From the NCBI GenBank assembly GCA_916048095.2, contig OU696576.1, positions 8,509,988 to 8,573,987 on the forward strand: a DNA stretch of 64,000 nt, written 5' to 3'. The notes under the pieces are model-generated. The model did no database searches, was not told the origin of the DNA, and worked only from the letters and a program-made list of their open reading frames with translations. The stretch comes from Sacculina carcini (taxonomy: Eukaryota; Arthropoda; Thecostraca; Sacculinidae). The position numbers and the translations under genes are program-made. This document shows, one piece after another, positions 1 to 64,000 of this stretch. Positions within the stretch are counted from its first letter, which is position 1. Every line of letters begins with the position of its first letter.

Positions 1-266
1 TTGTGTGTATATTTGTGTGTGTATGTGTATTTATTTGCATGTACTTATGTGTGTCGATGTATGTCTGTATATATGCTTGTATGTCTGTCTGTGTGCGTCT
101 GTTTGTTTCCTTATATGTCTGCGTATAAGTCCGTATGTGTGTATGTGTATTTATATGTACACATGTGTGTCTGTATGTCTTTGTTTGTACGCCTGTGTAT
201 GTGTGTGTGTGTGTCCCTGTATATCTGTATGTCTGTTTGTATGTACATCCTGATGCGGCCGAGTAG
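1..266 (+). other. Intron 3' part of NADSYN1, TG/TA-rich
   Basis: TG-, TATG- and TCTG-rich sequence ending in an AG just before the first recognisable NADSYN1 exon. The long reading frames across it (repeats of Cys/Val) are translations of a dinucleotide repeat, not genes. Confidence 0.7.
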
Positions 267-1279
267 ATGCAGCACTTCAGCGCCGAGGAGGAAATATCGC
301 TGGCGCCCGCCTGCTGGTTGTGGGACTATTTGCGACGCAGCGGTCAGGGCGGCTTGTTTCTGGCGCTGAGCGGCGGCGTTGACTCGGCGGCCAGCGCGTG
401 TATGGTGGCCTCCATGTGTCGCCTCGTCGTCGACGCCGTGCAAGACGGAGGTGCTCCAGTGTGTCTCCGTTTCTCTCTGTGTTTCTCTCTCTCTCTCTTT
501 CTCTGTGTTTCTCTCTGTTTCTGTGTCTGTGTGTGTCTTTCTTTTTCTGTGATTCTCTCTTTTTCTGTGTTTCTCTCTCTTTTTCTCTGTGTGTTTCTCT
601 CTTTTTCTGTGTGTGTCTCTCTCTTTCTATCTTTCTCTCATTCTGTCTGTGTGTGTGCGTGTGAGTGCGTCTGTGTATCAGTGTATCCTTGTGTCGGTGT
701 ATCAGTATGCTTGTGTGTGTGTGTGTATATCTGCGCATATATATGTGTGTGAGTGTCAGTGTGTACCAGTGTATCAGTGTATCAGTATGTGTGTACCTGT
801 GTGTGTGTGTCCACATTCAGACGAGGCCGTACTGCAGAGTGTTCGCCGGATGGTGGGCGACGTCGAGTTTGTGCCGACCGACGGCCGGCACTTGTGTCGT
901 GAACTGTTCACCACGTGCTACATGGCCTCGGAGAACTCCTCCGAGGAGACAGAACAACGCGCCAAACAGCTGGCTCATGAGATCGGCAGGTGTAGATTTT
1001 ACCACGCGTGTGTGTCTGCTTGTGTGCTTGTGTGTGTGTGTGTCTGCTTGTGCGTGTGTGTGTGTGCTTGTGTGTGTGTGTGTGCTTGTGTGTGCGTGTG
1101 CGTGTGTGTGGGTGTCTGTGTGTGTGTTTGTGCTTGCGTCAGTGTGTGTATGTTGGAATGATTTAGTCTATTATACTGAAAGGCCTCAATGTTGACTTTT
1201 ACGGGTCTACAATATATCCGAATTGCTTTACCTTACTTTACTTACGGATATCCTAATGTCGTGTTTATGTGTATATGTG

Positions 1280-1318
<39 letters not shown>

Positions 1319-1548
1319 GTGTGACAGTTACCACATGACCGTGGCGATCGACATGGCTGTATCTGCCATGCTGAGCATCTTCAAGACGGTCACCAGTGTG
1401 CGGCCAAGGTTCCGGCGCGACGGAGGATCTCCCCGCGAGAACCTGGCGCTGCAGAACGTGCAGGCGAGCCAGATTCAGATTCTCATCACATCCTCCCTCA
1501 TTAGCTGTGTCTCAATTCTGTGCCTCATCCTCTCATCCTTCTCTTAGC

Positions 1549-1593
<45 letters not shown>

Positions 1594-4500
1594 TCTGTGT
1601 TCGGTTTATCGTCCGACATTAAATGGTTTGTTCACTGGCCATCTGATTTCGGTGTGTATGTCTGTGCGTGTGCTTTTGTGTGTGTTTGTGTGTTCTCACC
1701 TAGTTGTTCTTCACAGGTTAATGAGTTAAACACTCGTATGTCTTGTGTCTTCCATTTATTCTAGCGTATTTCTTGAACATAAGTGTATTCTTTCTGGGCG
1801 ACATTTTCTTATGGATATTCTATGAGGGAAATTGTATTTTTGGCTATATCTTTGTGTATGTGTGTGTGTGTGTGTGTGTGTGTAGGCGCGTGTGCGCATG
1901 GTGGTGTCGTACCTGTTGGCCCAGCTGATGTTGTGGGTGCGCGGTCGACCGGGCGGCCTGCTGGTGCTGGCCTCGGCAAATGTGGACGAATCGCTGCGCG
2001 GCTACCTCACCAAGTACGACTGCAGCAGCGCCGATATCAACCCGATCGGCGGCGTGTCCAAGACCGATCTCAAGGTGTGGACTTTTTGTGCTCCCTCAAT
2101 TAATATTATTATTATTAATGACAGGCAAATCCAGTAGCATGGGGGAAGAGTGCAAGCACTATCAACACCCTAAGGTGGCCCCATGTGTACCGGAAGCGCC
2201 CAAAAGCTTCAGAGAGAAAGAGAATTCGAAGAAAAAATTCTAGAAAGAGAGTTGGAAATCAAAATGATAAATAAATAACAATAAATAATAAACCATCATC
2301 CGATAACACTCCATAATGTCACTCCGCCCACGTTCCTCAATAAATAATAACAATCAACAATAAATATGTGATTCAATAAATGACAACCATCAATAAATAG
2401 GGATAAATATTAATAAACAAGTAATAAATAACAATCAAGAACAATACATATGAATACAAATATGAACAATATATAGAAATATATCCCTCAATTATCTACT
2501 TACTCGTATTTATTTATTTAACGACACAGTATATTTCATCATGCACAATTTATTAATAACTCATTTTATTAGCCTTTTATTTAATATTTACATCACTGGA
2601 TTTTTGAGCTTAACAATTAAAGTTCTATGGAAAAGCAATATTATTCGATATGTACGCGTGCTGTTGTATGTTTGTGTGCGTGTTTGGGTGTAGCGTTTTT
2701 TGCGCTACATGCGCGACAAGTTCGCTTTTGTCTCGCTGGACGCGATTTTGTCTGCTCCTCCTACAGCAGAGCTGGAGCCGCTTGATCGGTCCACAGGCCA
2801 GCTGATACAGACCGACGAGCAGGATATGGGTGAGAGCGCGCGAACACTGTAATTTCTTCATCCATCAAATTCGCAATCATTGGCAATAATTGTCCGCTAG
2901 AGTATGTTTGTCCATGGTTTCTATGGAATTTGGTTTTGTACAAAAGTATATGTTTTGTTTGTTTTTAGTTTCTTAATTACTTACCGTATTTGCCGGTGTA
3001 TACGTTAGTCGACTCGTTGTATAAGTCGACCCCCTAAAATTCGACGGAAATTTACGATTTTATGGTTTATCCTTTGTATAAGTCGAGCTCAATTGTTTCA
3101 TTATACTAAACTTTTATATCAACAACTATATTATAATGCGACGAACGCTTTATAATGATTCAGTTTCTCGCTTTTTTGATGAGCCTGACGGACGCACAGC
3201 CACGCACAATGAGATGCATGAGAAACGGCCTCGGTTACCATCACATTTGAAACGATGAATACGAAGTTTAATTTTATGACTCGGTGTATAAGTCGAGGTC
3301 GATTTTTTCCCGTCGATTTTGATCGAAAAAGATCGACTTATTCACCGGCAAATACGGTAATCTTTTAATGTATTATGTTAAATCTTCCTGTTGATTTGTC
3401 TTTTAGAATGAAGTATCATGTTCATCTCATGTGTGTGTGTCTGTTTGTGTCTGTTTGTGTGTGTCTGTCTGTCTGTCTGTTTGTGTGTGTCTGTCTGTCT
3501 GTCTGTTTGTGTGTGTCTGTCTGTCTGTTTGTGTGTGTCTGTCTGTGTCTGTTTGTGTGTGTCTGTCTGTGTCTGTCTGTCTGTTTGTGTGTGTCTGTTT
3601 GTGTGTGTGCTTGTGTGTGTGTGTGTTTGTCTGTGTGTGTGTGTGTGTGCGTGTCTGTTTGTGTTTGTGTTTGTTTGTGTGTTTGTGTGTGTGTCTGTCT
3701 GTGTCTGTTTGTGTGTGTGTGTCTGTCTGTGTGTGTGTGTGTGTCTGTTTGTGTATGTTTGTGTCTGTTTGTGTCTGCTTGTGTGTGTGTGTGAGCGCTT
3801 TTGAGACCCTTGGGTGAAAAGCGCGATATAAATGTCTTAATGTAATGTAATATGTGTGTGTGCGTGTCAGGCATGTCATACGCTGAGCTGTCGATATTTG
3901 GTCGTTTGAGGAAGGAGGAATGTCGCGGACCTTACTCAATGTTTTGTCGTCTGCTGAACACGTGGCGTGACTGTTGCACACCTCAGGAGGTGAGCTCAAG
4001 TCCATGCAAACTGCCCCGCCCACCATTGCTGTTGGATTATTGTCAGCGTTTATGATTAATTACAGGCAAATCCAGTAGCATGGGATGAGTGCAAGTGCAC
4101 TATATTACCACCCTGCGGTACCAGCCCCATGTACCACAAGCGACCAAAAGATGTCGATATAAACAGAGTTGGAAAACTGATGTATTTCACTCAGGAAGAT
4201 TCAAGCTAATGACGAAACAAAGCGAATGAATAAAATGGAATTATAAACTCAAAAGGCTCAATAAAAGTGTATATATCAATACAATAATCAATAACAAAAA
4301 TCAGTAATTGACGTTTAATTAGAGGTTTCGTTCTATTCGAGGTGATATTCGAATATTGTTAACTTTAATATATAGGTTTTACGGTAAATATATATGTATA
4401 TATTCGTATAATTATGTCATTCATGTCATTCATGTCTGGCATGGTTGATTTGCAAGTACTTATTGGCTGGTCTTGTTTGTGCAAGTATATACAGCCACGC

Positions 4501-6625
4501 TCCGTTTAGCTTGAGGCAAACACCTTTCAATGCATGTATGTATATTTGTGTGTGTGTGTGTGTGTTAGTGTGTGTGTGTGTGTGCGTGTGTGTGTGTGTA
4601 CTGTTCTGGTTTATGTATCTGTCGCTTGCAGCCTGACTAGGGAGTGTTTACATTTGTGGCCGTGTTGTTGTGGTGTGTTGTGTTGTGTTGGCTGTTTCCG
4701 TTGGCTGGGCTGGGGCTGTGTTTTGTATTGTGCAAATCCGATCAAATTTTGTGACTTTCTGTCAGCGTTGTGTAGGTTACGAAAACAAGAACATGCACAC
4801 ACACACACACACGTACACACACATACGCACAGAATCTTGCAAAATATTTACGCTCGTCCAAATGCATTAGAACTTACATTCAACTCGATTTAGCTCGGTG
4901 TGTGCATGTTTGTGTATATATGTGTTTGTCTATGCTTGCTTGTGTCTTTGTGTATGTCCGTTTGTGTGTGTGTGTGTGTGTGTGTATGTTTCCGTGTGTT
5001 TTATACATGTGCGTGTATATTTACGTATGTATGTATATGTTCACGTATGTGTGTAAATGTTTATGTATGTAGGCGACACAGGTTAAGCACTTTCATCGCT
5101 GTTATCAGGTGGCGGATAAAGTAAAGCACTTTTATCGCTGCTACGCCGTTAATCGACACAAAATGACAGTGCTGACACCTAGCGTTCACGCCGAGAACTA
5201 CGGCGTCGACGACAATCGCTTCGACCTGCGACCGCTGCTGTACAACGCCTCGTGGAGCTGGCAGTTCAACAATATCAACGTTGCCGTGAGTAAAACGGGC
5301 TAAAGGCCTCAAGTGACAGCTGCTACACGGGAAGAAGTCGAAGCTTATGAACACACACAGGTGTGTCCCGTGCAGCTCGCTGCCACCGCAGAACCAACCC
5401 TCTCCACGCTATGACGCCACAAGGACGGAAGACGTATTAGAGAGGACCACCTCCCCATAATGCATGGCATAACAGATGACTGATATCTGGTACCATCATT
5501 TACTGCTGGGTGGACAGGGGCTGTTGGATTATAGAATTCCCCCAATAAAATTCTCCTCCGCCAGGTTTCGAACCACGGACTTCTCTCTTGTGAGGCGGGT
5601 GTGCTAACCACAACACCACGGGGTCCGGCATAAGGAGTAGTTTAGCGAGGGGTATAAATTGAGGAACGGCAAAAAGTTAGATGACGAAAATTTTGTTCAT
5701 GTACATATGAGTGTGTGTGTGTGTGTGTGTGCAGCTGAAACGGTTGGACGCACAGCGGGACAGCCAGACGGACGCCGAGGGTAGACCGCTGAACAATTTC
5801 TCTCGGCCACAGCAGCAGCGCCCTCTAGCGGAGCAGTCAGCAAGTAGTAGCAGCAGTGAACCAATGACTCGACCACGAGTCAGCCCCGTCGCCGCCACAG
5901 AACAACGAAATCGAGACTCAGGTGACAGTATTATTAATGCCAAACATCGATATAAGGCGCTAGTTGGGGCCCAAAAAAGTCGACCGCGTTGTCTCTAATA
6001 GCGCTTTTCATTATATTTTTTACCCTCTTGATATGCGATTATACAGTATTTGGCTCCAATAACCTTTCGCGCTTCATCGATGCGTCTGATACCAATGTTT
6101 GATTGTATTATAGTGTTTCTAGTGTTATCAACGTCAATTTACAGAGTTAAGTGTGAACGGAGCGTGAACGCTGTAAACTGTACTGATGCGTGGGGATTAC
6201 ATGACTGTAATCCCCACGCATCTTGATTATCAACACACAGACACACACAGAGAGAGAGGGAGAGAAGAGCAGGGAAATTTTTAGAGGTTTGACTATTTCC
6301 ATTGCTGGTATATTTTCTGTTCGTTGTTTCTGTCTGTTAGACAGACTAACTTGGTTGTGTACATATATATATATGTGTGTGTATGTTGAGAGTAGTTGGC
6401 GATGTGGCGAGACAGCAACGCGGTGCTCCAGTTGGCTCACAATCTCTTCATCACTCGACCAGCACTCCCTCGCTGGCAGCGGCCGAACCGCACTCGCTCA
6501 ACGTTCCGCTGACGTCGGCCAGCTCTCAGAACAGCACGGCGGCGGCGGCGGCGGCTTCGACAACACGCCAGTGGCGCCTGGCCGACTCGGCGCGCTGGCT
6601 CGGCGGTCGCGGCAGACTGGTGTAG
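267..6625 (+). CDS. NADSYN1: Glutamine-dependent NAD+ synthetase, C-terminal synthetase part (5' end outside window)
   Basis: Converts nicotinic acid adenine dinucleotide to NAD+ with ATP and glutamine-derived ammonia in the cytosol. Exons read by phase and conservation: 267(or 273)-450, 821-989, 1328-1463, 1886-2074, 2694-2829, 3871-3989, 5073(or 5109)-5285, 5735-5921, about 6393-6625. The first visible exon carries the PP-loop ATP pyrophosphatase motif SGGVDS; later exons carry [14 protein letters not shown]-type, [22 protein letters not shown] and [14 protein letters not shown]-type blocks typical of eukaryotic NAD synthetases. The N-terminal nitrilase (glutaminase) half must lie upstream of base 1. 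The intron after 1463 starts with GC. The last two exons give a Q/S/A-rich tail that is not conserved in the family; if the donor at 5922 is unused, translation instead stops at 5998. The family call is very secure; the last exon border is tentative. Confidence 0.93.
2101..2470 (-). repeat. Dispersed repeat family B, long copy, in NADSYN1 intron
   Basis: Shares the core ACAGGCAAATCCAGTAGCATG...GTGCAAGCACTAT...CCCCATGT with five other places in the window. The + strand begins with a TAT/TTA microsatellite, so on the minus strand the element would end in an (ATT)n-like tail, as 3' ends of LINEs or SINEs do. This copy extends about 250 bp further into AATAA-rich sequence that is again nearly identical at 58.8-59.0 kb. 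Confidence 0.7.
2981..3360. mobile_element. Short non-autonomous DNA transposon (MITE) with terminal inverted repeats, in NADSYN1 intron
   Basis: The left end TTACCGTATTTGCCGGTG and the right end CACCGGCAAATACGGTAA are exact inverted repeats over 18 bases. Just inside both ends the sequence again mirrors (TATAAGTCGA / TCGACTTATTC). The 380-bp body has no coding capacity. Superfamily is not assigned; no clear target duplication beyond 2-3 bases can be read. Confidence 0.85.
3431..3800 (+). repeat. TG/TCTG microsatellite block in NADSYN1 intron
   Basis: About 370 bp made of (TG)n interrupted by TCTG and TTTG units. It lies in the intron that ends at the acceptor before 3871. Apparent reading frames on both strands are repeat artefacts. 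Confidence 0.85.
4053..4175 (-). repeat. Dispersed repeat family B, short copy, in NADSYN1 intron
   Basis: Carries the family core ACAGGCAAATCCAGTAGCATG, GTGCAAG, CACTAT and CCCCATGTACC in the same order and orientation as the copy at 2.1 kb, then diverges. Confidence 0.65.
5300..5628 (-). mobile_element. tRNA-Val-derived SINE (family A), full-length copy in NADSYN1 intron
   Basis: Reads on the minus strand: a tRNA-like head with A and B boxes (box B like GGTTCGAAACC) and an anticodon-loop position matching CAC (Val), then a conserved body with GGTACCAGATATCAGTCAT, TTGTGGCGTCATAGCGTGG and GGACACACCTGTGTGT, and a tail ending near CTTGAGGCCTTTA. Inserted 15 nt after the exon ending at 5285, inside the intron. 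Confidence 0.85.
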
Positions 6626-10188: not shown

Positions 10189-10452
10189 TAAAGGTTAAAG
10201 GTCTACGTGACAGCTACTACATGGGAAGAAGCTTATGAACACACAGGTGTGTCCCGTGCAGCTCGCTGCCACCGCAGAACCAACCCTCTCCACACTATGG
10301 CGCCACAAGGACGAAAGACGTATTAGAGAGGGCCACCTCCCCAAAATGTATGGTACAACACATGACTGATATCTGGTACCATCATTTACTGCTGGGTGGA
10401 CTGGGCTGTGGGATTATAGAATTCGTCCAATGAAATTCTGCTCCGCCGGGTT
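10189..10452 (-). mobile_element. SINE family A, copy lacking the tRNA head, upstream of vitellogenin 1
   Basis: Minus-strand body of the tRNA-Val SINE from the TTTAACCTTTA tail to CCGGCGGAGCAGAATTTC. The tRNA-like head with both Pol III boxes is missing. Its near edge is about 215 bp upstream of the vitellogenin 1 TATA box. Confidence 0.8.
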
Positions 10453-10668
10453 GCTGCCGAAATACCAGCGTGACATGAAGCCTGCACGCACTCACCACTG
10501 GACCCACTGGACTGATGTGCAGATGCAGCAGTACATACACACACACACACACACACACACATACAAGCAAGCAAACACGAGCGAACGGGCCAAGAGCCTA
10601 CAGAGCGCGAAAGAGCATGGAGTCAAAGAACTGCATACACACACACATACACACGAGATGATGCAGGG

Positions 10669-24809: not shown

Positions 24810-27800
24810 ATGGGAAGCCGAGGGGCTCATCTCCTCCTGCTGCTAGGTGAGTGGCTTGACCATCATGATAGTGATACAGATAAAGAACCAGATAAACCCA
24901 AACAAATCGTCTCAAAGCATTGAATTCTCGCTGAAGCTGATGTTGATTAATTGAAATTATTCGATATTATCATAAGCATGTTGATGGGCACACTTATTCG
25001 TGCATTGTACTCATCGAGCACAATGTGTAGCGACTTAAAAGTGTCTGCAGTAAATTTCCACTATCGAAATACAAACGATGATGTTTACTGTTACTTTGGA
25101 CTGCGTGGTTTAGTGGTAGCATACCCGCTTTACAAGCGGGAGGCCCGTTGTGCGAAACCCGACGGAGGATAGTTTCTTTAGGCGAATTCTATAATCCAAT
25201 AGCCCCTGTCCACCGAGCAGTAAATGATGGTACGAGATATCAGTCATGTGTTGTGTCATGCATTCTGGGGAGGTGGTCCTCTCTAATAAGTCCTCCGCCC
25301 TTGTGGCGCCATAGCGTGGAGAGGGTCGGCTCTGCGGTGGCAGCGAGCTGCACGGGGCACACCTGTGTGTGTTCATAAGCTTCGACTTCTTCCCGTGTAG
25401 CAGCTGTCACTTGATGTCTTTAACCTTTATTCTAGCAATGTTCAAGCACATAACTTGGTACCAAGCCATGCCATGTCTTACCGTCAAAATGATCGCAAAC
25501 ACTTCGTCCAAGGTGATTCCTCAGCAGAATGATGACACATTTAATTCAATTGATATACAGCCTACCGTATTCTTTATTCGTATATATTTATTTATTGATT
25601 CTATATTTGCAATTTAAGCATATCTTTCCTGGAAGAGTATGCCATAATTATTTAGGGATCACATGCATCGGAATCACGAGACCATTCTCGTTGAGCTCCG
25701 TGGTGTAGTGGTCTCGTGCACACCTTACAAGTGGGAGGTCCGTGGTTCGAAACCCGGTGGATACTTTCCTTGGGCGAATTATATAATCCAACAGCCCCTG
25801 TTCACCCAGCAGTAAATGGTACCAGATATCAGTCATGTGTTGTGTCATGCATTCTGGGGAGGTGGCCTTCTCTAATACGTCTTCCGTCCTTATGGCGCCA
25901 TAGCGTGGAAAGGTTCGGTTCAGCTGCACGGGGCTGCACTGCAGCACCTTTATTCGTGAGCTTCGGCTTCTTCCCGTGTAACAGCTGTCACTTGAGGCAT
26001 TTAACGTTTAAGAGATGCGTAACGTGAAGAATTCCCCTCTACTGGAGAATTGAGAGACCGTCAAGTGAGGAATTAAAAGGCATACAGAATAACAAGTGTG
26101 TGATTTGATCAATATAAATTCGTATAAATTAAATTCGTATATTGTATATATATATATATATATTGTTTATAGTGACTTCCTCACATTCAATTGTGTAGAA
26201 CAGCGGAATTCATATGATTTATCAGCGCTGTAGCGGAAAATGAAGCGTTGGCTCGTTAAGAAGTGGGAAATCAGAGAAAAAAGGTTACGGACCACCATTC
26301 TAGACGTATCCACCTCGTGATATAAAAAGGCTCAACAGATAGTAGACGGGAGAACAATTTTTCGAGATGTTTGGAAGCCATGAAGTCAATGTATATTGTG
26401 TATGTATATATGTGTTTGTATGTGTATGTATATGTGTGTGTGTGTGCACAGCGTCGTTGTGGTCGGTGCAAGCACAGTGGGAACAGGGATACTTGTGGAA
26501 GTACCGGTATGCAGCCCGACAATGTTCGTCACTATCGAGAAACCACAACCAGTACTCGGCAGTGGCAATCAAGTGCCAACTGTGGGTGCAGCAGTTCGAG
26601 AACCAGGTGCTCGAAGTCAACCTGACCAACTGCGAATACGGAGAGCTGCACAACCAAGCCTCCAGCCATAGTTGTGAGCACACACCCATCAGCTACAGTC
26701 CACTGCCGCCCGAGCTCAGCCGAGTGATTAGCATGCCATGCCACGTGCAGCTGTCACGCGGGCTCATATCCCAAGTGACGTGCGACGCCAAAGAAACGGT
26801 GCACTCGATGAATCTGAAAAAAGCCGTGCTGTCGCGACTTCAAATGGACTGGGAAGGTCGATCATCGTTGGATAGAAGTAAACTGAACGCACCGCAGCCA
26901 CAAGGACGTGCACCGCCATATTTCGTCGTGATGGAAAAAACGGAAGGAGGAGAATGTAGAACCACTGTCATGGTCACGCCACCGATCAACGAACTCTACA
27001 AAAGGCAGACTCTACACGACCTGCGGCGAAAGTTCCCCGATATACATCTTCCTCCTGAAGTGATGAAGGCACCGCTGAGATTCGTTTACAAGGTGAACGA
27101 CTATGAACGAACACATGACCGCTCCACTTGGATTCATCAAATGCCCGCTAATCGTAATAACTATCTATGCTACGCAGGAGCGTGTCTTCAAACGCCATCA
27201 AATAGAAGTACCACGGTCAGCTACATCCTCAGTGGATATAGAGCAGCTGATGCAAGAATTTTGAAAATAATTGCTGAATCGCAAACCGTTTTGAGCCCGC
27301 TCACATACCGCACTACACAAATGTGGACAAAAACAAACCAGACATTCGTGAACATTGGCAGCGAAAGAAGCAGAAACCAGAAAACAGTTATCCCGAACCC
27401 CCAGGTTCACCGGAATCTTACTTTCTTGCTTCCAACCAGCGATAAACAACCACTCCGAAAGCCAGATCCACGATCAGAAATCGTTCAATTGTCCATGTTC
27501 TCACCTGGCAGCCCCATCCCAAAATTAACAAAAGCAGAACTGCAACAAAAGATATGGCAGAGCCTGCAGACCATTGAGCAACAGGTAGGTAAGCCAGTAC
27601 CCGACGAAGGGTACACAGTAACCGGATCTTTGCTTGAAATGGAAAAAGCAATAGCTCTACTCCCCTATTCGTCACTGAAGAGTATCTTCTCTAGTGTGCA
27701 CACCCAAAGACAAAGGGAAATTTATTATCACATGCTGGTTGGAACTGGGACACCGGCTGCACTCAGTGTGATATTTGAGGCGATTGAGAACAAACAAGTG

Positions 27801-32371: not shown

Positions 32372-32729
32372 TCACGCAATATTTGAAGCCCCTCTGAAAT
32401 GGCATGAATAGGAAAACACGTTGAAACAGATTGAAAGCCAGGCTGTGGACGCACTAACCAACATATGCTTCAGTCGATTGACGCGTTCGATGAGCTTGGC
32501 CGCACCACCAGACATGCCACCAGAGACGCCACCTGAGACGCCACCACACTCGGCATCAGGCGCCGTGACCCCGGTCAATTCGGTCACATGACACCGGGTC
32601 AGCGCGCCGCCGGTCAAATGTCGACCGATTGGCTGCACGTTGGTCAGCAGAAGAATGCGACCCTCACACACCACACGCTCCAGAGCCATGCTCTGCAAAC
32701 GCACCAGCCCACACACACACATACACACA

Positions 32730-32770
<41 letters not shown>

Positions 32771-32916: not shown

Positions 32917-35504
32917 TGTGTATGACGATAGCCCATACTGATGAGAAACACTGCGATACGACACGTCACAACACATAATAATATTATATGAACGCCATCG
33001 TTAAGAAATGAATCATGAAGCATAGTCGCCACACTCAAAACGCACACAATACAAGCCACTACAGCAGATGTTCGCAATCGGTGGGTCGCGACCCACCGAG
33101 GTCACTTCAGGGGGTCGTGGGAGCCGTCTGGAAAATTAGCATCCGACATAATTTGCACAACAAATCACGTTATGAACACCTGATGTTTTTCATTTGTATT
33201 TTCGAATAAATTCAATAACGATGACATTAAAGTATTGAATGTGATAAGAATTCAGTATAAAGGTATTTTTCTAACGTATCTTATTCTTTACTGACAGGTC
33301 ATGGAGCCCTCCGGATCTGTCCTGGGGGTCGCTGAGCGAAAAAGATTGAAAATCCCTGCACTACAGTGCAGCACCTGCAATCCGCGCCAAAAATGCACGG
33401 CCACCAGATGTCGCTGATGGTCGCACATATAGACGGTCTGGTGGCGGTGGCGGTCGCTGCGGCCAGTGGTGGCGAGTGGTGGCGCCTCCACTCGAACCAC
33501 CAGCGCCACCAGATCGACCTCTCCGAACGCCGGCGGTTGTGGTGGCGGCCTCACGCCGTCACGGCCCTCACAGCTGGCGTCCAGCCAACAGCGGGGCGGC
33601 CAGTGAAAGGCCTTGTGTTGTGACGTCACGGCTAGAGGCCTGATGCGGCAATAACTGCCCGCCGACAGCTGCAGCGCCCCGTCTCTGAGGCAGAACGCAA
33701 GGTGGGAGGGGCGCGGCCGAAAAGGGGAACAAGATGATCAAGATGGTCATTGAAAAGTCGACGCCAATAAAAAATACCGGCAGCGGAAAAATGACTAAAT
33801 TGCAAAAGTGTCAGTTGACTTGCAAAACAGCGCTACAAAATAAATATTTGGAGTGCAGCTTAAAAATCAAAGGACCAATTCAAGGAGCAATACTTGCACA
33901 CAATACTGAACGAGTAGAATGATAAAGGCACATCTAAAGGAAACAAATATCATATCTGAAAAACATGTTGATACTGGACGGAATTTATATTGCATTCTAC
34001 AAAAAAATCCGCAATTTCTGCAAAATTTCCAACGCTTCAAAATAGACCAAATGAAAAACAAACAACTAAGATAGCCAGGCACCGTTTTGCGGAGGCGACG
34101 GCGCCATAGACGGACAAGCACGTGCCCTCCTTGATGAAGCGCATCAGTTCGTCGCTGGGCCGCCATATTGTCAACACAGCGCCATCTAACGGCAGATTAT
34201 TCGTACCCCATACGCGAATCTGCTCACACACACACGCGCGCTGTAGAAAGGCGCCAACCGATCAACGTATTTGTACACTTGGCAGCACGTGAGCCGAGAG
34301 GGGAGGGATAGGGGGCGGATGACGAGAAAGGGGGAGTAGAACCTTGAGCAGAGGAATGGTCGATGAATGATGGGCGGGCAGTAGATCAAGACGCCGGCGA
34401 AATTCGGCCTCCATCTTCTGCTGCTGTTCTTCGGCACATTGTCGCTGATATTGCTGCAGCAACAGCTTCTGCTGGTCGGTCAGCAATGACTACACACACC
34501 CACACACACACACACACTCACACACAAAAATAGACACAAATACACACCATGCTAAATGTTGTTCACATATAGTCTAGTGAAATAAACCTTCGAAAGCATC
34601 GATTAATCGTGTTGTCACCACTCTTACTCGCATCGTTCGTTTCCAGTCTTGAGAACTACACATGAGAAATCAAATCAGACACGCACACATACAAACACAC
34701 ACACACACACACACAAACACACATAATGCTTAAACAAGTGCGTTGTAAATTGCACAGTGTCAGTGACTATAGTGTAGGTGATATGTTAGTAGTCACTCGA
34801 GGTGGAATAATTATTATTAATTAATTACAGGCAAATCCAGTGACATGGGATGAGAGCAAGCACTATTACCAGCATGCAGTGGCCCCATGTACCACAAGTG
34901 CACAAAACATATAGATAGATTGAGAATAAAAATGGTTTAGTTAGTATGTGAGTCCAAGCACAAGCCAAACTAACGCCAAAAGTTCAACCAGAAAGCAATA
35001 CAGATAGACAGCCACACAATCACAAAATTCAAATCATTCACAAAGGAATTCATACACACACACACACACACAACAAAATTGACGTGAGATGCTCTAGGAG
35101 CCGACCTCCACTGAAGACACATCTGCCGCGTGCGTCACACACTCGTACACCTCCTGGCCGGAGCACAGCCGCGCCACCTCTTGTCTGGTGGGCGTGGCTT
35201 TTAGAGCGCCGGTGGGCGGGGCGTGGAGTTCGAGGGCGGAGCCAGACATGTCGCGCTGCACGTCGGCCAGCAGCTGTTCCAGTTGTTGTTGGCGCGCCGA
35301 ATCGCGTGCTCGTGCCGCACGACGCTCCTGTCGCTCGCTCAAAAACACTAACCGCACACACACACACACACACATATGAAGAGTGCTGTTCCGTTATTTC
35401 GCGTGTTGATTGATTTTACTTGTTTGATAACATGTGTATGTGTGTTCGTGTGTGTGAAAGAGAGAAAGAGAAAAAAAATGTGAGTGTGTATGCATATGTT
35501 TGAG

Positions 35505-35542
<38 letters not shown>

Positions 35543-35883
35543 CATATATGCGTGTAAGTGTGTATGTGTGTGTGTGTGTTTGTCACCGGCTTTTCTGACG
35601 TCCGAGGAGGCGTGGTCGCCACCCGACTTGTCGCAGTAGAGCAGCGGATAGCGGCGACCCACACACACATCCACACGCGCCACCGCACCCCCATCACCGA
35701 TCACACTGTACAGGCGCACGCAAAACTCACCACCACCACCGCCGCCGCCGCCATAGCGGTAAAAGCCTAGCTTGGTGTGCCAGCGCACGCGACGACACGA
35801 GTTGACAGAGAATCGCAGCGGTGTCGCGTTCGCCCCCATCTGGGATATCAGCGCGCACACACACACACGCACACACACACACA

Positions 35884-35936
<53 letters not shown>

Positions 35937-38900
35937 AGAATGAAGAAAACAATACAAAGAGATAAGGGCAAATATACAACAGAGTAAATAAATAATTGAA
36001 TAAATAGCGAGTATTAGTGCGAAAAACGCATATACAACTGACTACAAACTGTATAGACATTCCAATACGCTTCTACACGGAATTCAAAGATAGTTTAACG
36101 CTTGGACACTTTGAAATTCTGCACATATTCGCTGTAAATTAAGTTTTTAATAACGATCACATAGGATAACTGATCACTGGTCTAGCAAGATTGCTCCTTT
36201 AACACGAACAGTTAAAAGGTTAAAGGTCTCAAGTGACAGCTGCTACACGGGAAGAAGCCGAAGCTTATGAACACACACAGGTGTGTCCCGTGCAGCTTGC
36301 TGCCACCGCAGAGCCGACCCTCTCCACGCTATGACGCCACAAGGACGGAAGACGTATTAGAGAGGACCACCTTCCCAGAATGCATGACACAACACATGAC
36401 TGATATCTGGTACCATTTACTGCTGGGTGGACAAGGGGCTGTTGGATTATAGAATTCGCCCAATAAAATTCTCCTCCAACGGGTTTTGAACCACTGACCT
36501 CCCACTTGTGAGGAGGGTGTGCTACCAGTACATGACACAGTCCAACAAAAATGTGAGGCTAAATCCGGCATGCATCGGCTCACCTCCAGCGGAGCACACG
36601 GCTGATGCTCGGCTGACAGCTGAGCTCCGTGAATAATCAGCTTGCAGCCGACACGAATCCTACCGGCCGTTACAAGTCGCCGCAGGGCAGTGTCGCACTG
36701 AGCTCGCACACAGTACCAGCCGTCGCTGAGCAGAACACTGTCCACCACACCATTGCTGTCCTACCATGAGTGCACACACACATACATAGAAACACACACA
36801 CACACACACAAACGTAGAAACACACAGTAAAAGTATAATCAAGAGAAAATAAGATATTGCTGAGTATTAACCCAAAAAATAAGCTATCAGCAAAAACCGC
36901 CGATTAATCTACGATTGCCAAATTTAAAAGTCAAATAATAAGATAATATAAGTCTATAAATGCGTTCCTCTCCTGATTTTACTTTTCCCTGCAAACTTTC
37001 GTTACGGTAAGTCCGTGGTTCGAATCCCGGCGGAGGAGAATTTCTTTGGACGAATTCTATAATCCAATAGCCCCAGTCTACCCAGCAGTTAATGGTAGCA
37101 GATATCAGTCATGTGTTGTGCCATGCATTCTGGAGAGGTAGCTCTCTCTAATACGTATTCCGTCCTTGTGGCGCCATAGCGTGGAGAGGGTCGGTTCTGC
37201 GGTGGCAGCGAGCTGCACGGGACACACCTGTGTGTGTTCATAAGCTTCGGCTTCTTCCCGTGTAGCAGCTGTCACTTGAGGTCTTCAGCATTTAAGTTGG
37301 AATCATTTGATTCACTTCTCTGAGGCGTTTTAGCTCGCCACGGAGCGACACCATTTAACAACGCGAGTGATTTAGACCGACAGTATTTACACGCGTAGAC
37401 ACAACACGACAGCACGACCACAGCAGCAGGACAACACGCTTGAGGCCTTTAACCTTTAACCTTTATATATGAATGAGAGAGAGAGAGAGCCCTACTCTGC
37501 CAATGTCCACCACGCAGAGTACAAGAGTTCTGGCGGCCGGGTCATCGCCCTCGACAATACGACGCACGGCAGGTCGTTGACCCCGATCCAGCTCAACGTC
37601 GTATCTGTACATTAGCTGACGAACGATTTGACGAACCGTCAAGCATCTAAGATCGCATAAAAACAAACACGAATATCCAGCAAATGTGTGCTTCAACACA
37701 AACATCCACAGAATCCGTATAATTAATTCAACAAGTTAAGCATTGGCTGAATGCAGCCGCGAGCCACGCAGAAACAGGAATGATACATGAGATGCACATC
37801 TAAAGGTCATCGTGTAGACCCGTAGAGACAGGCATTTCATAATGAGTGTATATTCTACACACCATTCCCACATTCTTCTGAGCAATAGGTCAATGAATAA
37901 TGGTACAATATCGATGCGTAAATATTCTTCAGATGTCTATTGGGAGAAAATAACTGTCAAAAGAATTACCAGAATTGAAAGATACGTGAAATGCGCAGTC
38001 ACCCACCTGCCTGCCATCTGTTGGGGAAATTTTCGTTCATAACTTGCCAGCTTCCATACAACATGGCGCCAAGCGTTCAACAACCACCCGGCCGGCACCA
38101 GATCGGCCCTCACGGTGGGCGTGGCCAAAATAGCGTCCGACGCCTCGGCCACGCCCACAGTGGGCGGAGCAGTGACGTCTTCAACCACGCCCACTTGGAC
38201 AACAGCGCCCTCAAGAAAGCAGCCATCAACCGTACTGCAGGCACAATACAAGACTCATTAATTGCGCTATTTATAGAGAGAAAATATAACGAGCATATAC
38301 ACCACAAACGCTAAGCATTGAAAGTAATATAAACTACTTACAATTCAGTAAGTATACAATATAAGGATGTATAACATTAAATATATCACAAAATATATCA
38401 TATAAGATATTACACATAATATATAAACTAAAAGATGAAACGCCTAAGCATTAATGATGGATCAAAAATACGAAATTACGAGAGGTTAGCTGGCAACAAA
38501 TTGAACGAATTCTTAGTGCATTCTAACAGCATAAGTGTGGGACAAGCACATACATCGGCTCGTGCAGTGGTACTCTCAGATCTGCGGCACTGCAGAATGT
38601 CACGCGCTGCGCCTCCACAGAAACACCGTGGAGCAAGAGCTGAATAACAAACCAGGAAATGTCACTGTGTGAAACTGACACAATTGTGCAATAAAATAAA
38701 ATAGAAACGCTCGTGCATAAGGATGTGTGTATAAGGATGTGTGAGTTATCAAACAACAGACAAAAATACATCAGCAAATGCGTATAGTACAAAAAACAGC
38801 ACAGGAGAAGCAGATGGTAGTGGAAGAACACTGATGGTTGGTGTATTGCCTACCTCATTGCATGAGTAATCGCGTGGTGAGGAGCCAAGAGCCTCAGTGA

Positions 38901-50985: not shown

Positions 50986-51222
50986 ATCTCAGATGTTTAA
51001 CTTCACATTTGGCAGCCCGTCCATTCCCCCAGCAGTGGGGAATTCCCATGTCCCCACGTCTCTGCAACGCCAGGGATAATTCAGTGTGGAAACAGAACGG
51101 AACAGGCGAAATAATTCATCAGTTGAACTCAGCGATAATTACTCAACTATCACAGCTTTAAAAAAACGTATAATCTGATATTTCATTCGCAAATATGTCA
51201 TCTATGTGAAGATTCGTTTTGT

Positions 51223-51678
51223 TGGACTCGGTGGTGTAGTGGTAGCACATCCGCCTCACAAGCGGGAGGTGCGTGTTTGAAACCCGGCGGAGGAGAATTA
51301 CTTTGGGCGAATTCGTTGATCCAACAGTCCCTGTCAACCCAAAAATGAATGGTACCAGATATCAGTCTTGAGTTGTGCCATGCATTCTGGGGAAGTGACC
51401 CTATATAATATGTGTTTCGTCCTTGTGGCGCCATAGCGTGGAGAGGGTCGGTTCTGCGGTGGCAGCGAGCTGCACGGGACACACCTGTGTGTGTTCATAA
51501 GCTTCGACTTCTTCCCGTGTAGCAGCTGTCACTTGAGACCTTCAGCATTTAAGTTGGAATCATTTGATTCACTTTTCTGAGGCGTTTTAGCTCGCCACGG
51601 AGCGACACCAGTTAAGAACGCGAGTGCTTTGGACCGATTGTATTTACACGCGTAGACACAACACGACAGCACGACCAG
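51223..51678 (+). mobile_element. SINE family A, extended subfamily, full-length copy
   Basis: tRNA-like head GGTGGTGTAGTGGTAGCAC, anticodon stem-loop CCGC-CTCACAA-GCGG giving anticodon CAC (Val), GGCGGAGGAGAATT, common body, and the same 140-bp 3' extension as at 37.3 kb, followed by GACAGCACGACC. It is the only copy here with both intact head and extension. Confidence 0.9.
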
Positions 51679-59800: not shown

Positions 59801-60561
59801 AATGCAATGAAAATTTAAACAGGTGGAAGTTTTTAATACAAAAAATAAATAATGAAAATTTCTGGTGGTTAGAGGAATAAAATTGAAGATATGTACAGGC
59901 GGTGAATGCGACTCTCCGAGGAAAAGAGCGAGGAATACACGTGGTTTCCATTAACCAGCACTCCGGAACTGTGATGGCCATAAGAGTTTTCGACACGTTC
60001 TCGGAACGAGAGGACGCTGCCATGATGCTTTTCCTGAACATGTTGCCTGTCGGGCGATACATCGTCTTCAGCGTCAAGGTGGGTGGGGAGAAATATTGGA
60101 ACATCAAAGTGAAGACTGGAACGTACAGGTTCAAGAATAGGATATTAACTCAGGAACAGAGGACAGGTTCAGGGATAAGATACAGGTTCAGGAACAAGGG
60201 CAGGTTCAGGTTGATGGACAACTCAGGAACAAGGGCAGGTTCGAGTTAGAGGGCAACTTCAGGAACAAGGGCAGGTTCAGGTTGGAGAACAACTTCAGGA
60301 ACAACGGTAGGTTCAGGTTGAAGGATAAATTCAGGAACAAGGGCAGGTTCAGGTTGGAGGGCAACTACAGGAACAATATTGTAGTTCAGGAACAAGACAC
60401 TAATTCAGGAACAAGGTACAGATGCAGGTAAGCTTCAGGAATAGGGTACATATGCAGGTAAGCTTCATGAACAAGGTACAGGTTCCAGAACAAAATACTG
60501 ATTCAGGAACGAGTTATGCGTGTGTGAATAACTGACTATCACTTACGGATGACTCAATTGA

Positions 60562-60598
<37 letters not shown>

Positions 60599-63299
60599 CT
60601 GTATGTGTGTATGTGTGTCCTTGGCAGGATGAGTCTAGCTACCGTTTATCTGTGTCTTCACGACGCCAACTGAAACAACTGGGCTGCAGTGAGGCAGTTC
60701 GTCTATGCTGGCGCTGCATGTGGGCGTGTGTCGTACAGAAGACTGGCGTGGGCGGTGGTGTTGATGGCGGCGATAGTGGCGCTATTGGACGGCCTATTGG
60801 CGAACGACTCAGTGTCAGAGACCGCCACTACGCTGGCGAAGACCTGTTGGCATTGCCCTGGGCGCCATTGGCTCGTCTTCAGGTCAACATGACGCTCTCA
60901 CAGAAAACAGGTGACTGATATCAGGACAAAAGGCGATATTAGCCTTATATCGACGATCCGGTCAATATAAAACCTGCACCTGCAGCACTCATCTTTTCAA
61001 GGACACGATATATCACAAGAATTCATAATATTATAATTAATTAACGAAAAGAATTAATTATCACACGCACTTGAACATCAGTAATAGGTAATAATACTAA
61101 AGTGAATGGTAATTTTCGTAGTTTAAAAAAAAAATTGCCAAGTATGGATATGTATATATTCAAATAAATAAAAGTATGCTTTCGCTGTTTAAACGCAATA
61201 CAAAAGCATATAAAATTGTTTATAGCTTAGTTGGTCATTGTAGAATGCTATATTCCGAAGGATCAACTATATAATTTTGTCCCGGGATTATTTTTATTTG
61301 TAGACGCAGGTACATTGTGTGAAAATTGGCCACGCACGAATGAGACGCAGCGAAGACGTGCGTTTTGCTCGGAAGTCGACGGCTATGGTAGTGTGTGTTC
61401 TTGCCACCAGGCGGCGCCACTGGCGTTTGATAGAGACGCAAGTGGCGATCAAATTCGATATGCGGGTATACTGTCATCTATTTTGGTACTGGTAATAGCC
61501 AGCAATCGGCCGCAATATTTATACAGGTGATGAGAAATGTAATATGTCGTAAATAATTACGCAATTAAAGAATAATATAACTTGAAGAATACAAATAGTT
61601 GAGAATCAAAGTTAAATTAAATTTAATATATTTTTACAAAAATTGAAGAATAATAACGTTTCAGACTGTATAAACATGTTTTCACTGATCTAAATGATAT
61701 TATCATTTCAGTTCTATTATACAAAATGCAATCAAAATTTTTGGTTTGGTATTTATATCGATCATATATTTTATATGAAGTATTTTACAACAGAATTTTT
61801 ACCAACCTGTCATTTTGCCTGGTCATATTTTTATTAATTCTTGTTGGTTGTGTGAGCAGAATGTTGACCTCGCTGCTGGCGACGCACGGAATGGACAAAT
61901 CGCGCGTGATCGTCTCCATCGATGGCTATCACCATGAACCTCTGCTTGTTGCCAGATTATTGGGTCTGGCAGCAATACAACACGCCCCCAGCGGAGTGGG
62001 CAGCGGACGCATCTCTCAACATTACAAAGTGAATGGCATAGTAACCTTGTTCGTATTATATATTAGCTATATATATTTTATTTTGCGCGCATGTGTATTT
62101 ATATGCGCTAAAGGAGATGTATTTATTTATTATTATCATTATTCATAATATCTTTCTAGCGTAGTTGGCTTTTGTAGTTGTCCTCATGTTATTTTGTGTG
62201 TGTGTGTGCGGTGCTTTCATGTTAATGTTTTTATTTTCCCATCTTCGTTGTAGTTTGCCGCGCTTGTGTCCCTGGATGAGCGCTATACAAATATATGAAC
62301 GAATGAATATGTAACTGGCATTGCTGCGGTGTCGCACACGGTAACGTTAGTGGCATATTCTCTCACGAGATGGTGCTAACATAGCACAATAAATGTTTCT
62401 CTTGTTTTATTTCTTTAATTCACTCATTTGTTGTCGTGTTGTTGTGTATTGTTGCTTTTTTTCGTGTTATTTGGCTTTGTTTCAATTTCAATATTTAGTT
62501 TGATCAAATCATTGTCAATGTCTTTGTGTAACCGTTAACACACATTCTCCATCCTACTGAAGTGAACTTAACGCACAATTCGTGCCCAATACACGTTATC
62601 GAAGTGTTCAGGATCAATATAACCCACTCCTTCGCAGCATACTGCTTAGCCGTCCATGAGCGTAGCATCTTTTGGGCGTGTCCCCTTACCCGGTTCTAGA
62701 TTACGTTGGTGTTTCCTCCGCGAATTGTATCGTACAGCATGGGTTCATTTCGTCCTTCCCCTTGTCCAATATCTCAGAAGCCCTGTGTCCCTGACAAATG
62801 TTCTATTAGAAATAACTGAACCTAGAATTTAAACTTGGAAAAATCGCCGTGAGAGACGTTCACTTTTCGAGCATTTGCACCATTTGTCCGATAGGTGGCG
62901 TTGTCAACGGCTTTCCAAATGTTTCCCGAGGCGCGCTACGCCGCCATTTTCGAGGAGGATCTGGACGTTTCTCCCGACGCTCTTGCACTGTTCAACCACA
63001 GCGTGCCTGCGCTGGAAAACGACTCGAGTCTATTCTGCGTGTCCGCCTGGAATGACCTGGGCTTCCAGCACACTGTTCAGGTGCACACGCCTACGCCACA
63101 CACACTAGGCCATTCATTGGTCCACCCGCACACTCACACACACCTCAAACATACTCCAATGGCGGCGCCAAGGGGGAGCCTGGAGGGACTGAAGACTTCC
63201 CCCAAATGTGTCCAGATCCCCCCCGAAAACAAATCGCACAGCACGGGACTATCACTTTCTTAGCATGGGTCCTTGGTCCACTATCTCTGATGTATGTAT

Positions 63300-63369
<70 letters not shown>

Positions 63370-64000
63370 AGAACGAAAGCGAGTTGTATCGTGTCGATAC
63401 GATGCCAGGGCTGGGCTGGCTGTTGCCGCGGTCTATATACGAGACAGAACTGCAACCTCACTGGCCAACTGCCGACAAGGTCAGAACAACTCACATTCAC
63501 ACATATATATAGGGCTTCTTCAAAGAACACAAACTCGTCCGCCTCGTAGCCGAGTGGCTAAGACGCACGCTCTGTGAACGAGAGGTCCTGGGTTCGATTC
63601 CCTGGCGAGATGAAACGGGTGGGCTCGCTTCTTAAAGTGATAGCCCAATTGCCGCAAGGCGGGTTTCGTGTGCGCGCAGCCGTACAGTTTTCTGTGCTGG
63701 CCGTGACTGCGAAAACCTGTGTGTGTGTGTGGCGGCCGGACCTCCTGTGTGCCAGCCGGGGCCGTGAGGCTTTGCCCCCGCAAAATTTCACGTGAACACA
63801 GCCTTCTCTACTGCTGTGTTCAAATGTGTAATAATAATTATATAAATTTAATTAATTAAACCCGGCTTTTTCGCAAAGTTTCGTCCGAACGTTTTCAGTG
63901 GGAAATTAAGAGCAAATGAACTTCCAGCATTGTGAGTCGGCAAATACTAATGTGTGTATGTGTGTGTCCAGATGTTTGATTGGGACATGTGGATGCGCAA
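56014..64000 (+). CDS. POMGNT1: Protein O-linked-mannose beta-1,2-N-acetylglucosaminyltransferase 1 (partial)
   Basis: Golgi type II enzyme that adds GlcNAc in beta-1,2 linkage to O-mannose on proteins such as alpha-dystroglycan. Exons in phase: 56014-56128, 59470-59669, 59899-60078, 60628-60910, 61304-61526, 61860-62028, 62895-63080, 63372-63479, 63972-beyond 64000. Exon 1 here encodes the membrane anchor ([19 protein letters not shown]); it may contain the start (ATG 56023) or be preceded by another exon. Then come the ILEI-like stem domain ([38 protein letters not shown]) and the GT13 catalytic domain: [44 protein letters not shown] with the metal-binding Dx[23 protein letters not shown] and WDMWMR. 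The first junction restores a GAC codon, which supports the far-off anchor exon. The C-terminus is outside the window. Secure family call from 59.9 kb on. Confidence 0.93.
58150..58520 (-). mobile_element. Decayed LINE ORF2 C-terminal fragment
   Basis: Minus strand reads [16 protein letters not shown] near 58490-58440, the classic CR1/L2-type motif, and later, after stops and frame shifts, [14 protein letters not shown] and KTCLFNKS near 58290-58180, matching the APRLWNSLP...LKTHLF end. Several stops make it a relic. Confidence 0.7.
58631..59060 (-). repeat. Dispersed repeat family B, second long copy
   Basis: Nearly the same as 2.10-2.47 kb, including ATCATCCGATAACA, ATAATGTCACTCCGCCCACG and the AATAA-rich part (ATAACAATCAACAATAAATA). 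Same orientation as all other copies in the window. Confidence 0.8.
60126..60512 (+). repeat. Degenerate VNTR in POMGNT1 intron
   Basis: More than ten imperfect units built on TTCAGGAACAAGG, grouped in higher-order units of about 36 bp (GGCAGGTTCAGGTTGGAGGG + CAACTTCAGGAACAAG). Lies in the intron 60079-60627. Confidence 0.9.
63294..63371 (+). repeat. (TG)n tract abutting POMGNT1 acceptor
   Basis: TG/TATG run of about 70 bp ending in GTACAG at the acceptor before 63372. Confidence 0.9.
63537..63795 (+). mobile_element. tRNA-derived SINE of a second family, in POMGNT1 intron
   Basis: tRNA-like head with box A TAGCCGAGTGGCTAAG and box B GGTTCGATTCC; acceptor and anticodon stems have mismatches, so it is not a functional tRNA. 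The body (GGGTGGGCTCGCTTCTTAAA ... GCCCCCGCAAAATTTCACG) is unlike SINE family A. Single copy here. Confidence 0.65.

Follow-up and report, generated by a model that had tools for sequence, protein, structure and literature searches.

UG-rich tracts precede the 3' splice sites of many Sacculina carcini introns and may take the place of the polypyrimidine tract

The window analyzed here is a stretch of 64,000 nucleotides from contig OU696576.1 of the arthropod Sacculina carcini. It carries NADSYN1, vitellogenin and exons to which an earlier label, POMGNT1, was given, all on the plus strand, and BRCA2 on the minus strand. A preliminary description of this sequence proposed that acceptors in these genes are preceded by sense-oriented UG repeats instead of pyrimidine tracts. 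The tracts, which on the minus strand appear as CA in the plus-strand sequence, are listed in Table 1.

Table 1. Tracts at acceptors in the window, and one donor-side stretch
Feature	Position	Strand	Details
UG tract and AG, NADSYN1 exon 821	784..820	+	UG run 13 nt in last 60 nt
UG tract and AG, NADSYN1 exon 1328	1268..1327	+	UG run 27 nt
UG tract and AG, NADSYN1 exon 1886	1854..1885	+	UG run 25 nt; GC donor at 1464
Imperfect UG tract and AG, NADSYN1 exon 2694	2650..2693	+	Perfect run at most 6 nt
UG tract and AG, NADSYN1 exon 3871	3852..3870	+	UG run 10 nt; dispersed hairpin repeat upstream
Imperfect UG tract, NADSYN1 exon 5073	5041..5072	+	Perfect run at most 7 nt
UG tract and AG, NADSYN1 exon 5735	5710..5734	+	UG run 21 nt
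UG tract and AG, last predicted NADSYN1 exon	6374..6395	+	UG run 9 nt
UG tract and AG, vitellogenin exon 26452	26409..26451	+	UG run 14 nt
UG tract and AG, exon 60628 (POMGNT1 by earlier label only)	60564..60627	+	UG run 25 nt
AC-rich stretch after donor 63081, able to pair with UG tract of its own intron	63083..63148	+	RNAduplex -68.8 kcal/mol
UG tract and AG, POMGNT1 exon 63372	63295..63371	+	UG run 29 nt; exon matches PDB 5ggf
UG tract and AG, exon 63972 (POMGNT1 by earlier label)	63950..63971	+	UG run 9 nt
UG tract (CA on +) and AG, BRCA2 exon ending 36760	36761..36815	-	UG run 19 nt
UG tract (CA on +) and AG, BRCA2 exon ending 35839	35840..35937	-	UG run 15 nt in last 60 nt
UG tract (CA on +) and AG, BRCA2 exon ending 35347	35348..35374	-	UG run 20 nt
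UG tract (CA on +), BRCA2 exon ending 34489 (earlier) or 34471 (gene finder)	34472..34530	-	UG run 17 nt
UG stretch, candidate BRCA2 acceptor, border uncertain	34220..34243	-	UG run 11 nt; gene-finder intron 34186-34278
UG tract (CA on +) and AG, BRCA2 exon ending 32692	32693..32768	-	UG run 19 nt

All 15 previously listed acceptor coordinates in the window end in AG. As had been described, each has a sense UG repeat: the longest perfect run in the upstream 60 nt measures 7 to 29 nt, against 0 to 4 nt for CA in the same interval. Among the 32 introns of our gene models that lie wholly inside the window, 17 have a UG run of at least 8 nt in their last 60 nt and none has a CA run of that length; in the 20 best-supported of the window introns, the counts are 12 and 0. 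These figures agree with the earlier estimate of roughly 20 in about 33 acceptors, a tally that included imperfect tracts.

Some exon borders are ambiguous. Upstream of NADSYN1 exon 5073, a tandem duplication supplies another possible acceptor, the AG at 5107-5108, and the gene finder ended the intron at 5108. For the minus-strand acceptors at 34489 and 34219, the model introns end at 34472 and 34186, versus 34490 and 34220 by the earlier reading. The ends of modeled genes are sometimes wrong: the run on the larger block described below joined NADSYN1 to upstream exons, one vitellogenin first exon was placed at 25663 rather than at 24810, and BRCA2 was extended to 30952, beneath a vitellogenin gene.

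For a broader count, we used 284 contiguous kb and a gene finder whose acceptor model contains no tract term; its coding training set included four short NADSYN1 exons. This procedure gave 139 introns, the 85 best-supported of which constitute the main sample. Of these 85 introns, 44 contain a perfect UG run of at least 10 nt within their last 60 nt, and 1 contains a CA run. Repeat orientation tracks the gene strand, as the preliminary description had it, with 17 UG and 1 CA runs among 38 plus-strand introns and 27 and 0 among 47 on the minus strand. The chance level, estimated from 1205 random sense YAG sites within introns, is 6.6% (Fisher p about 1e-25 against 44/85). When dinucleotides are counted instead, 57/85 introns have at least 8 TG in their last 45 nt, and 2/85 have at least 8 CA. 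UG runs cover 24-29% of bases at positions -1 to -40 versus 2-6% at -61 to -400, and their density drops at about -60. Introns show a mild UG bias throughout (201-400 nt from either end, UG runs make up about 4-6% of bases and CA runs 1.5%), and a small share of the asymmetry is therefore not acceptor-specific.

Outside this block, we sampled two gene families, myosin and kinesin, by means of homology-anchored exons. For myosin, 60 of 82 matches were used (ranks 2-61); 12 of the 60 yielded no exon, and for another 5 the match start had no acceptor within 60 nt. For kinesin, 40 of 123 matches were picked by eye, first in list order, under the rule that a match span at most about 120 profile positions, start at position 20 or later and contain no internal stop; one match that satisfies this rule (C23:4230948) is absent from the sample. 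The kinesin acceptor was defined as the open-frame YAG nearest the match start, and 2 of the 40 matches had none; close to the start of one of these two lies a 15-nt CA run. UG tracts precede 17/43 myosin and 17/38 kinesin acceptors, and CA tracts precede none in either family (34/81 versus 0/81 pooled). Such tracts are found in many unrelated genes on many contigs, including before exons within conserved domains of housekeeping genes (for example, MCM2 and HSP90B1). Thus UG tracts before acceptors are confirmed as real and as reaching beyond the window. Their position, their strand specificity and their spread over the sampled genes and contigs can be read directly from the genome sequence.

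Tracts of this kind could be a mutational by-product, if microsatellites that stem from retroposon tails grow longer close to acceptors and are simply tolerated there because UG repeats are U-rich and free of AG. A dispersed hairpin repeat does end in a UG tract in four introns (3800-3870, 75525-76267, 131890-132559 and C20:1783766), TG repeats are abundant in the genome, and introns are UG-biased as noted above. In addition, myosin exons that share their first bases have different tracts (0, 0, 12 and 4 nt). However, tolerance alone predicts no more than the density of the intron body. The UG density at -1 to -40 exceeds this several-fold and drops off near -60, which argues against mere tolerance of repeats; by the pattern used, the hairpin repeat precedes only 2/85 acceptors. 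We regard this explanation as quite unlikely. The differences among same-start myosin exons, together with the 35/85 acceptors at which a UG run of 8 nt is absent, do imply that an acceptor can do without the tract and that tracts are gained and lost.

Raw pattern counts in the genome were tried as a test and dropped. The other sequences that follow TG repeats are not neutral controls. (TG)10CAG occurs 530 + 493 times and the reversed pattern 108 + 111 times; the corresponding numbers are 1323 + 1372 and 2462 + 2506 for (TG)10YAC, and 1326 + 1300 and 1837 + 1826 for (TG)10YAA. The counts were dropped after a look at the first eight (TG)10CAG loci: in three (L003, L006 and L007), the TG tract adjoins a dispersed repeat, and only L002 has a coding score above 2 directly after CAG in a check made in contig + orientation, which scored the sense strand only for L002, L005 and L007.

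Textbooks treat the polypyrimidine tract as a regular component of animal 3' splice sites. In the block, none of the 85 introns is at least 75% pyrimidine at -25 to -5, which fits the earlier statement that UG stands instead of a pyrimidine tract, given UG runs of at least 10 nt in 44/85. Runs of at least 9 pyrimidines occur in 3/85 block introns and at 0/43 myosin and 0/38 kinesin acceptors. At -40 to -5 (83 introns), the composition is T 0.41, G 0.32, C 0.12 and A 0.15; TG and GT dinucleotides are 2.6-fold above the intron body, CT, TC, CC and TT are depleted, and the pyrimidine share equals that of the intron body. Acceptors that have no UG run likewise have no pyrimidine tract, and the UG tract does not account for the recognition of these 35/85. 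The AG-free zone upstream of the acceptor has a median length of 61 nt in UG-type introns (at least 20 nt in 35/42), versus 14 nt at random YAG sites. A long zone is expected if the tract sits between the branch point and the AG. No branch-point motif stood out from k-mers or from alignment on tract starts, and the only signal was a slight rise in A (0.32-0.34) about 5-8 nt upstream of the tract.

Donors had been suspected of being weak, but this was not borne out: 79 GT donors show an ordinary consensus, with G at -1, +3 and +5 at frequencies of 0.86, 0.56 and 0.71. Lin et al. reportedly described, in 2016, introns of fish and lamprey that are bridged by AC...GU pairing. If the same occurred here, the UG tract would pair with an AC tract at the donor, and the hairpin would join the two sites without U2AF2. 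Judged by pairing energy, introns 63081-63371, 77998-78550 and 199474-200497 are good fits. Intron 35348-35586 fits by its AC run of 29 nt after donor 35586 and UG run of 20 nt at the acceptor, and is shorter than the limit for the pairing test (75 introns, each of at least 240 nt). When the threshold is set to 8 nt, there is a slight association between AC donors and UG acceptors (9/41/1/34, Fisher p 0.042). However, the donor side has no clear orientation (UG 12 and CA 8 of 85, p 0.50). AC runs of at least 10 nt at +7 to +106 occur in 8/85 introns, 6 of which also have a UG acceptor; an AC donor run of 10 nt is therefore absent from 38/44 introns with UG acceptors (Fisher p 0.27), and donor TG is associated with UG acceptors to about the same degree as donor AC. 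In folding, own donors gave a mean of -28.7 kcal/mol versus -29.8 for swapped donors, and 82% of permutations were at least as good. Bridging as a general rule, prompted by introns 63081-63371 and 35348-35586, thus fails on orientation, co-occurrence and swapped-pair folding. With no clear donor orientation and no better pairing within introns, fish-type bridging is not the general explanation and seems highly improbable as such. A few single introns (for example, 63081-63371) appear to resemble the fish class.

What, then, might read the tract? In CFTR exon 9, a (UG)m(U)n tract is bound by TDP-43, and the UG tract lowers exon inclusion; TDP-43 is not known to have a UHM able to recruit U2. 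The preliminary description had asked for TDP-43 orthologues, and three loci with the N domain are present. TDP-43 has high affinity for GU repeats (PMC12697283, in its accessible part), and TDP-43 or CELF could occupy the UG tracts and thereby regulate or define acceptors, much as in CFTR. However, tracts here precede conserved-domain exons of housekeeping genes such as MCM2 and HSP90B1, and, as no UHM is known in TDP-43 either, we consider such a role decidedly unlikely.

The U2AF2 gene is duplicated: two divergently oriented copies, each in one open frame, are 73% identical, and their UHMs are most alike (97-100% DNA identity per 60-nt bin, with the rest mostly lower). Copies with altered specificity might let U2AF itself read UG, which would make PUF60 dispensable. 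By eye, however, the aromatic RNP residues and most RNA contacts, at the positions that we take to be contacts in U2AF2, appear as in human. Because these residues look largely conserved, no change of specificity can be claimed, and this alternative is unlikely. PUF60 has two loci, one complete with RRM1, RRM2 and UHM. According to the accessible part of PMC6093180, PUF60 is a U2-recruiting factor that prefers UG-rich tracts, its binding is competed better by poly(GU) than by poly(U), and TGTGT is bound better than T5. In human cells, as far as partly available accounts go, PUF60 and U2AF affect overlapping sets of exons, at times oppositely. Because human PUF60 prefers UG-rich RNA, PUF60 is the first candidate, and it seems a better one than TDP-43 or CELF.

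We propose that a UG-rich 3' splice-site tract replaces the pyrimidine-rich tract in this genome. This tract, in many cases a (UG)n microsatellite, would occupy the interval from the branch-point region to the AG and act as a polypyrimidine tract does; RRM-UHM proteins of the PUF60/U2AF2 family would bind it and recruit U2 snRNP through the UHM. We give roughly 55% probability to this reading, that is, to replacement with a PUF60/U2AF2-family UHM factor as the most likely reader. On sequence grounds, the sampled introns are devoid of pyrimidine tracts, the factors are encoded, and donors have no general AC partner. We infer the need for the tract in splicing, PUF60 or a U2AF2 copy as its reader, and the place of the branch point.

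The findings suggest that the splicing machinery may here read a non-textbook acceptor signal. More tentatively, this could be an animal lineage in which the UG tract replaced the polypyrimidine tract genome-wide, with matched U2 recruiters (U2AF2 and PUF60 duplicates) and no hairpin partner. If acceptors do use UG instead, they would offer a natural test of which factor defines an acceptor and of the way in which a core splicing signal can change along with the factors that read it. For gene finding, UG sites would receive poor scores from acceptor models that were trained on pyrimidine tracts.

Several known systems invite comparison. As in CFTR exon 9, a UG repeat lies beside the 3' splice site and TDP-43 orthologues exist, but here many genes are involved rather than one, and usually no U tract follows the UG: a run of at least 9 pyrimidines occurs in 1 of the 50 introns that have a UG run of at least 8 nt. 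Like the canonical U2AF65 polypyrimidine tract, the UG tract is placed before the AG; unlike it, C is depleted, G is enriched, and pyrimidine content stays at intron background. Human exons activated by PUF60 share the UG-rich segment, the long AG-free zone and a PUF60 with a UHM, but they are a subset with UG and UC segments, whereas here UG is the main type and UC is rare (PMC6093180 and PMC7969005, accessible parts). In zebrafish, (GT)n reportedly precedes the 3' splice site in about 10% of introns and pairs with a donor (AC)n (PMC6093180, PMC7404189 and PMC9198270, accessible parts). The earlier remark that genome-wide use of this kind would be new is therefore not fully right, since zebrafish (GT)n was already published (PMC6093180); here the donor partner is absent from 38/44 UG-type introns. 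Vertebrates aside, we found no account of a genome-wide UG tract in titles and abstract openings, with few subscription papers among them. The fish and lamprey AC...GU introns resemble those described here in having (GU)n immediately upstream of the 3' splice site, strand-specifically and in many genes. The Sacculina introns differ from them in having no general donor (AC)n and no preferential pairing, and in the frequency of the tract, which is found at 34/81 to 44/85 of the sampled acceptors rather than in about 10% of introns.

At all 15 acceptor coordinates for which the preliminary description had claimed UG tracts directly before the 3' splice site, the intron ends in AG and has UG upstream in the sense orientation. 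The claim that tract orientation follows the gene strand also holds when 4-kb bins of the window are counted without gene models. TG runs cover 312 bases at 0-4 kb and 110 at 60-64 kb, where genes lie on the + strand, and CA runs cover 0 in both; at 32-36 kb, where BRCA2 lies on the - strand, CA runs cover 212 bases versus 76 for TG. Within the window, which spans C8:8509988-8573987, the identities of NADSYN1 (NAD synthase domain), BRCA2 (BRCA2 repeats and OB1), one vitellogenin gene (N domain) and one POMGNT1 exon (63372-63479, matching PDB 5ggf) are backed by homology, and the remaining window exons carry only the names first given to them. A single-exon gene on the - strand (45307-47436) has weak matches to WD40-type families, under the family cut-offs.

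Gene models for a contiguous 284-kb block (the window and 220 kb around it, in window coordinates) came from a simple gene finder in which 3-periodic coding statistics are combined with one general matrix for donors and, for acceptors, a four-position matrix (-3, A, G, +1) that has no tract term. This gene finder was trained on long window exons and four short NADSYN1 exons and retrained twice on the block, of which 22.5 kb was masked. Before the retraining it reproduced the NADSYN1 and vitellogenin structures drawn by eye; one exon began at 5109, versus 5073 in the preliminary description. By eye, the NADSYN1 exon start at 5073-5145 contains a short in-frame tandem duplication, which gives two possible acceptors. 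The final output comprised 139 introns, 162 exons and 23 genes, whose ends are sometimes wrong. Outside the window, HSP90, PI3K and MCM domains cross many junctions in three multi-exon predictions, and a cadherin gene was also confirmed. A high-confidence set of 85 introns in 15 genes remained once both sides of an intron had to reach a coding score of 8 or more and introns with masked bases were dropped.

For independence from our own choice of genes, exon-level matches were sampled from the whole genome (43 contigs, 264 Mb). For the myosin head, 60 of 82 matches, on 10 contigs, were fetched and gave 43 usable acceptors; for kinesin, 40 of 123, on 13 contigs, gave 38. Many kinesin-motor matches cover the whole domain in a single frame (contigs C11, C23, C29 and others), several of them clustered, for example at C11:1881371-2062534.

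Perfect alternating runs of at least 10 nt on the transcribed strand, within the last 60 nt of the intron, are UG in 58/139 and CA in 2/139 of all block introns. In the high-confidence set the counts are 44/85 and 1/85 (10/20 and 0/20 inside the window; 34/65 and 1/65 outside), with a gene-bootstrap interval for the UG share of 0.41-0.57 and at least one UG-type acceptor in 9 of the 15 genes. Control YAG sites gave 3.7% UG and 4.6% CA in gene spans on both strands (n=8149), 4.5% and 6.2% between genes (n=4541), and 6.6% and 2.9% in the sense orientation within introns (n=1205). The orientation and spread of the tract recur in both family samples. Myosin head acceptors have UG in 17 of 43 at 10 nt or more and in 24 at 8 nt or more, and CA in none at either length; the corresponding donors have UG in 3 and CA in 4. 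Kinesin acceptors have UG runs of at least 10 nt in 17/38 and CA in 0/38, and 30/38 have at least six TG dinucleotides; when no acceptor is chosen and the 90 nt surrounding the start of each match are scanned instead, such runs are UG in 19/40 and CA in 1/40. The sole high-confidence intron with an acceptor CA run of this length, in HSP90B1 (74639-75325, beyond the window), ends in a long CA tract.

Bases in UG runs make up 24-29% of positions -1 to -40, 15% of -41 to -60 and 2-6% farther upstream. Because tract density is thus several-fold that of the intron body, it is less likely that these are microsatellites merely tolerated near acceptors. Introns do have a mild UG bias throughout, since UG (4.7-6.2%) exceeds CA (1.4-1.7%) even 201-400 nt from either end. 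The last UG run lies a median of 10 nt from the exon (44 introns). The median AG-free stretch before the acceptor is 61 nt for UG-type introns, 48 nt for introns that lack a UG run and 14 nt for random YAG sites, as expected for a tract between branch point and AG. A search for a branch-point motif found none; roughly 5-8 nt upstream of the tract, the frequency of A shows a slight increase and that of G a decrease.

Other animals generally have a pyrimidine tract at this place; the figures here come from this genome. From -40 to -5 of 83 introns, composition is T 0.41, G 0.32, C 0.12 and A 0.15, versus T 0.34, G 0.20, C 0.19 and A 0.27 in the intron body, and pyrimidine content is therefore at background. 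Over the same positions TG and GT are enriched 2.6-fold, and TT, CT, TC and CC fall to 0.46-0.69 of background. None of the 85 high-confidence acceptors reaches 75% pyrimidine at -25 to -5; nine-pyrimidine runs occur in 3/85, in 0/43 myosin and in 0/38 kinesin acceptors; and at least 10 pyrimidines in a 12-nt stretch occur in 8/85, versus 284/1205 random sense YAG sites. The 35/85 acceptors without a UG run of 8 nt have raised G (0.26 versus 0.19 at random sites), and no other distinguishing mark was found in them.

In fish introns, a donor (AC)n is described as pairing with an acceptor (GT)n (PMC7404189, PMC9198270, PMC6093180). Such bridging may apply to single introns here, for example 63081-63371. 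However, AC donors are few and co-occur weakly with UG acceptors (9/41/1/34, p 0.042, for runs of 8 nt; 6/38/2/39, p 0.27, for runs of 10 nt), and the two ends of an intron pair no better with each other than after swapping. Donor sides have no clear orientation (UG 12/85, CA 8/85, p 0.50).

A dispersed hairpin repeat, which we take to resemble the tail of an L2-clade LINE, adjoins TG tracts. Because it ends in the tract directly before the acceptor in four introns, an origin of the UG tracts from repeats is plausible, and this repeat may have seeded them. A SINE-like repeat is also seen by eye, in introns and between genes.

Coordinates of dispersed repeats and candidate factor loci
Feature	Locus	Coordinates	Remark
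Hairpin repeat	window	3800-3870	ends in tract
Hairpin repeat	block intron	75525-76267	ends in tract
Hairpin repeat	block intron	131890-132559	ends in tract
Hairpin repeat	L124 (kinesin sample)	near C20:1783766	ends in tract
Hairpin repeat	L003, L006, L007		beside TG tracts
SINE-like repeat	window	5300-5640, 10190-10470, 25100-25420, 36215-36530, 51220-51550	by eye
U2AF2 copy	L031	C26:1032100-1033600	divergent; single open frame
U2AF2 copy	L032	C26:1035270-1036770	divergent; single open frame
TDP-43 N-domain	L034	C26:5885700-5887300	domain match
TDP-43 N-domain	L033	C29:894800-895700	domain match

The samples directly show where the tract lies, its orientation, its spread and the missing pyrimidine tract, and from there its function and reader are inferred: most likely, the UG tract would replace the polypyrimidine tract and be read by a PUF60/U2AF2-type factor. 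The two U2AF2 copies, which are divergently oriented on C26 and whose closest solved structures are of human U2AF65, are 73% identical; their UHM DNA is 97-100% identical and most other parts have diverged, a pattern that resembles gene conversion within the UHM. PUF60 has two loci (L095 and L096). The gene on C31 is complete in a single frame; the locus on C16 has no nearby UHM among the matches listed, and its DNA beyond the RRM part is packed with dinucleotide repeats. The TDP-43 N-terminal domain has three matches, two of them on C26 and divergently oriented.

Human PUF60 is reported to have high affinity for UG-rich motifs, and the exons it activates to have UG-rich tracts upstream (PMC6093180, PMC7969005); zebrafish PUF60 has been proposed for testing on (GT)n introns (PMC6093180). 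Both (UG)n before the 3' splice site and the UG-rich tracts of PUF60 are already known; what is new is how large a share of acceptors is involved, that a partner is lacking and that there is no pyrimidine tract. Unlike the fish (AC)n...(GT)n introns, most UG acceptors here have no AC partner at the donor; like PUF60-activated human exons, they have a UG-rich tract before the acceptor, but here it stands without a pyrimidine tract.
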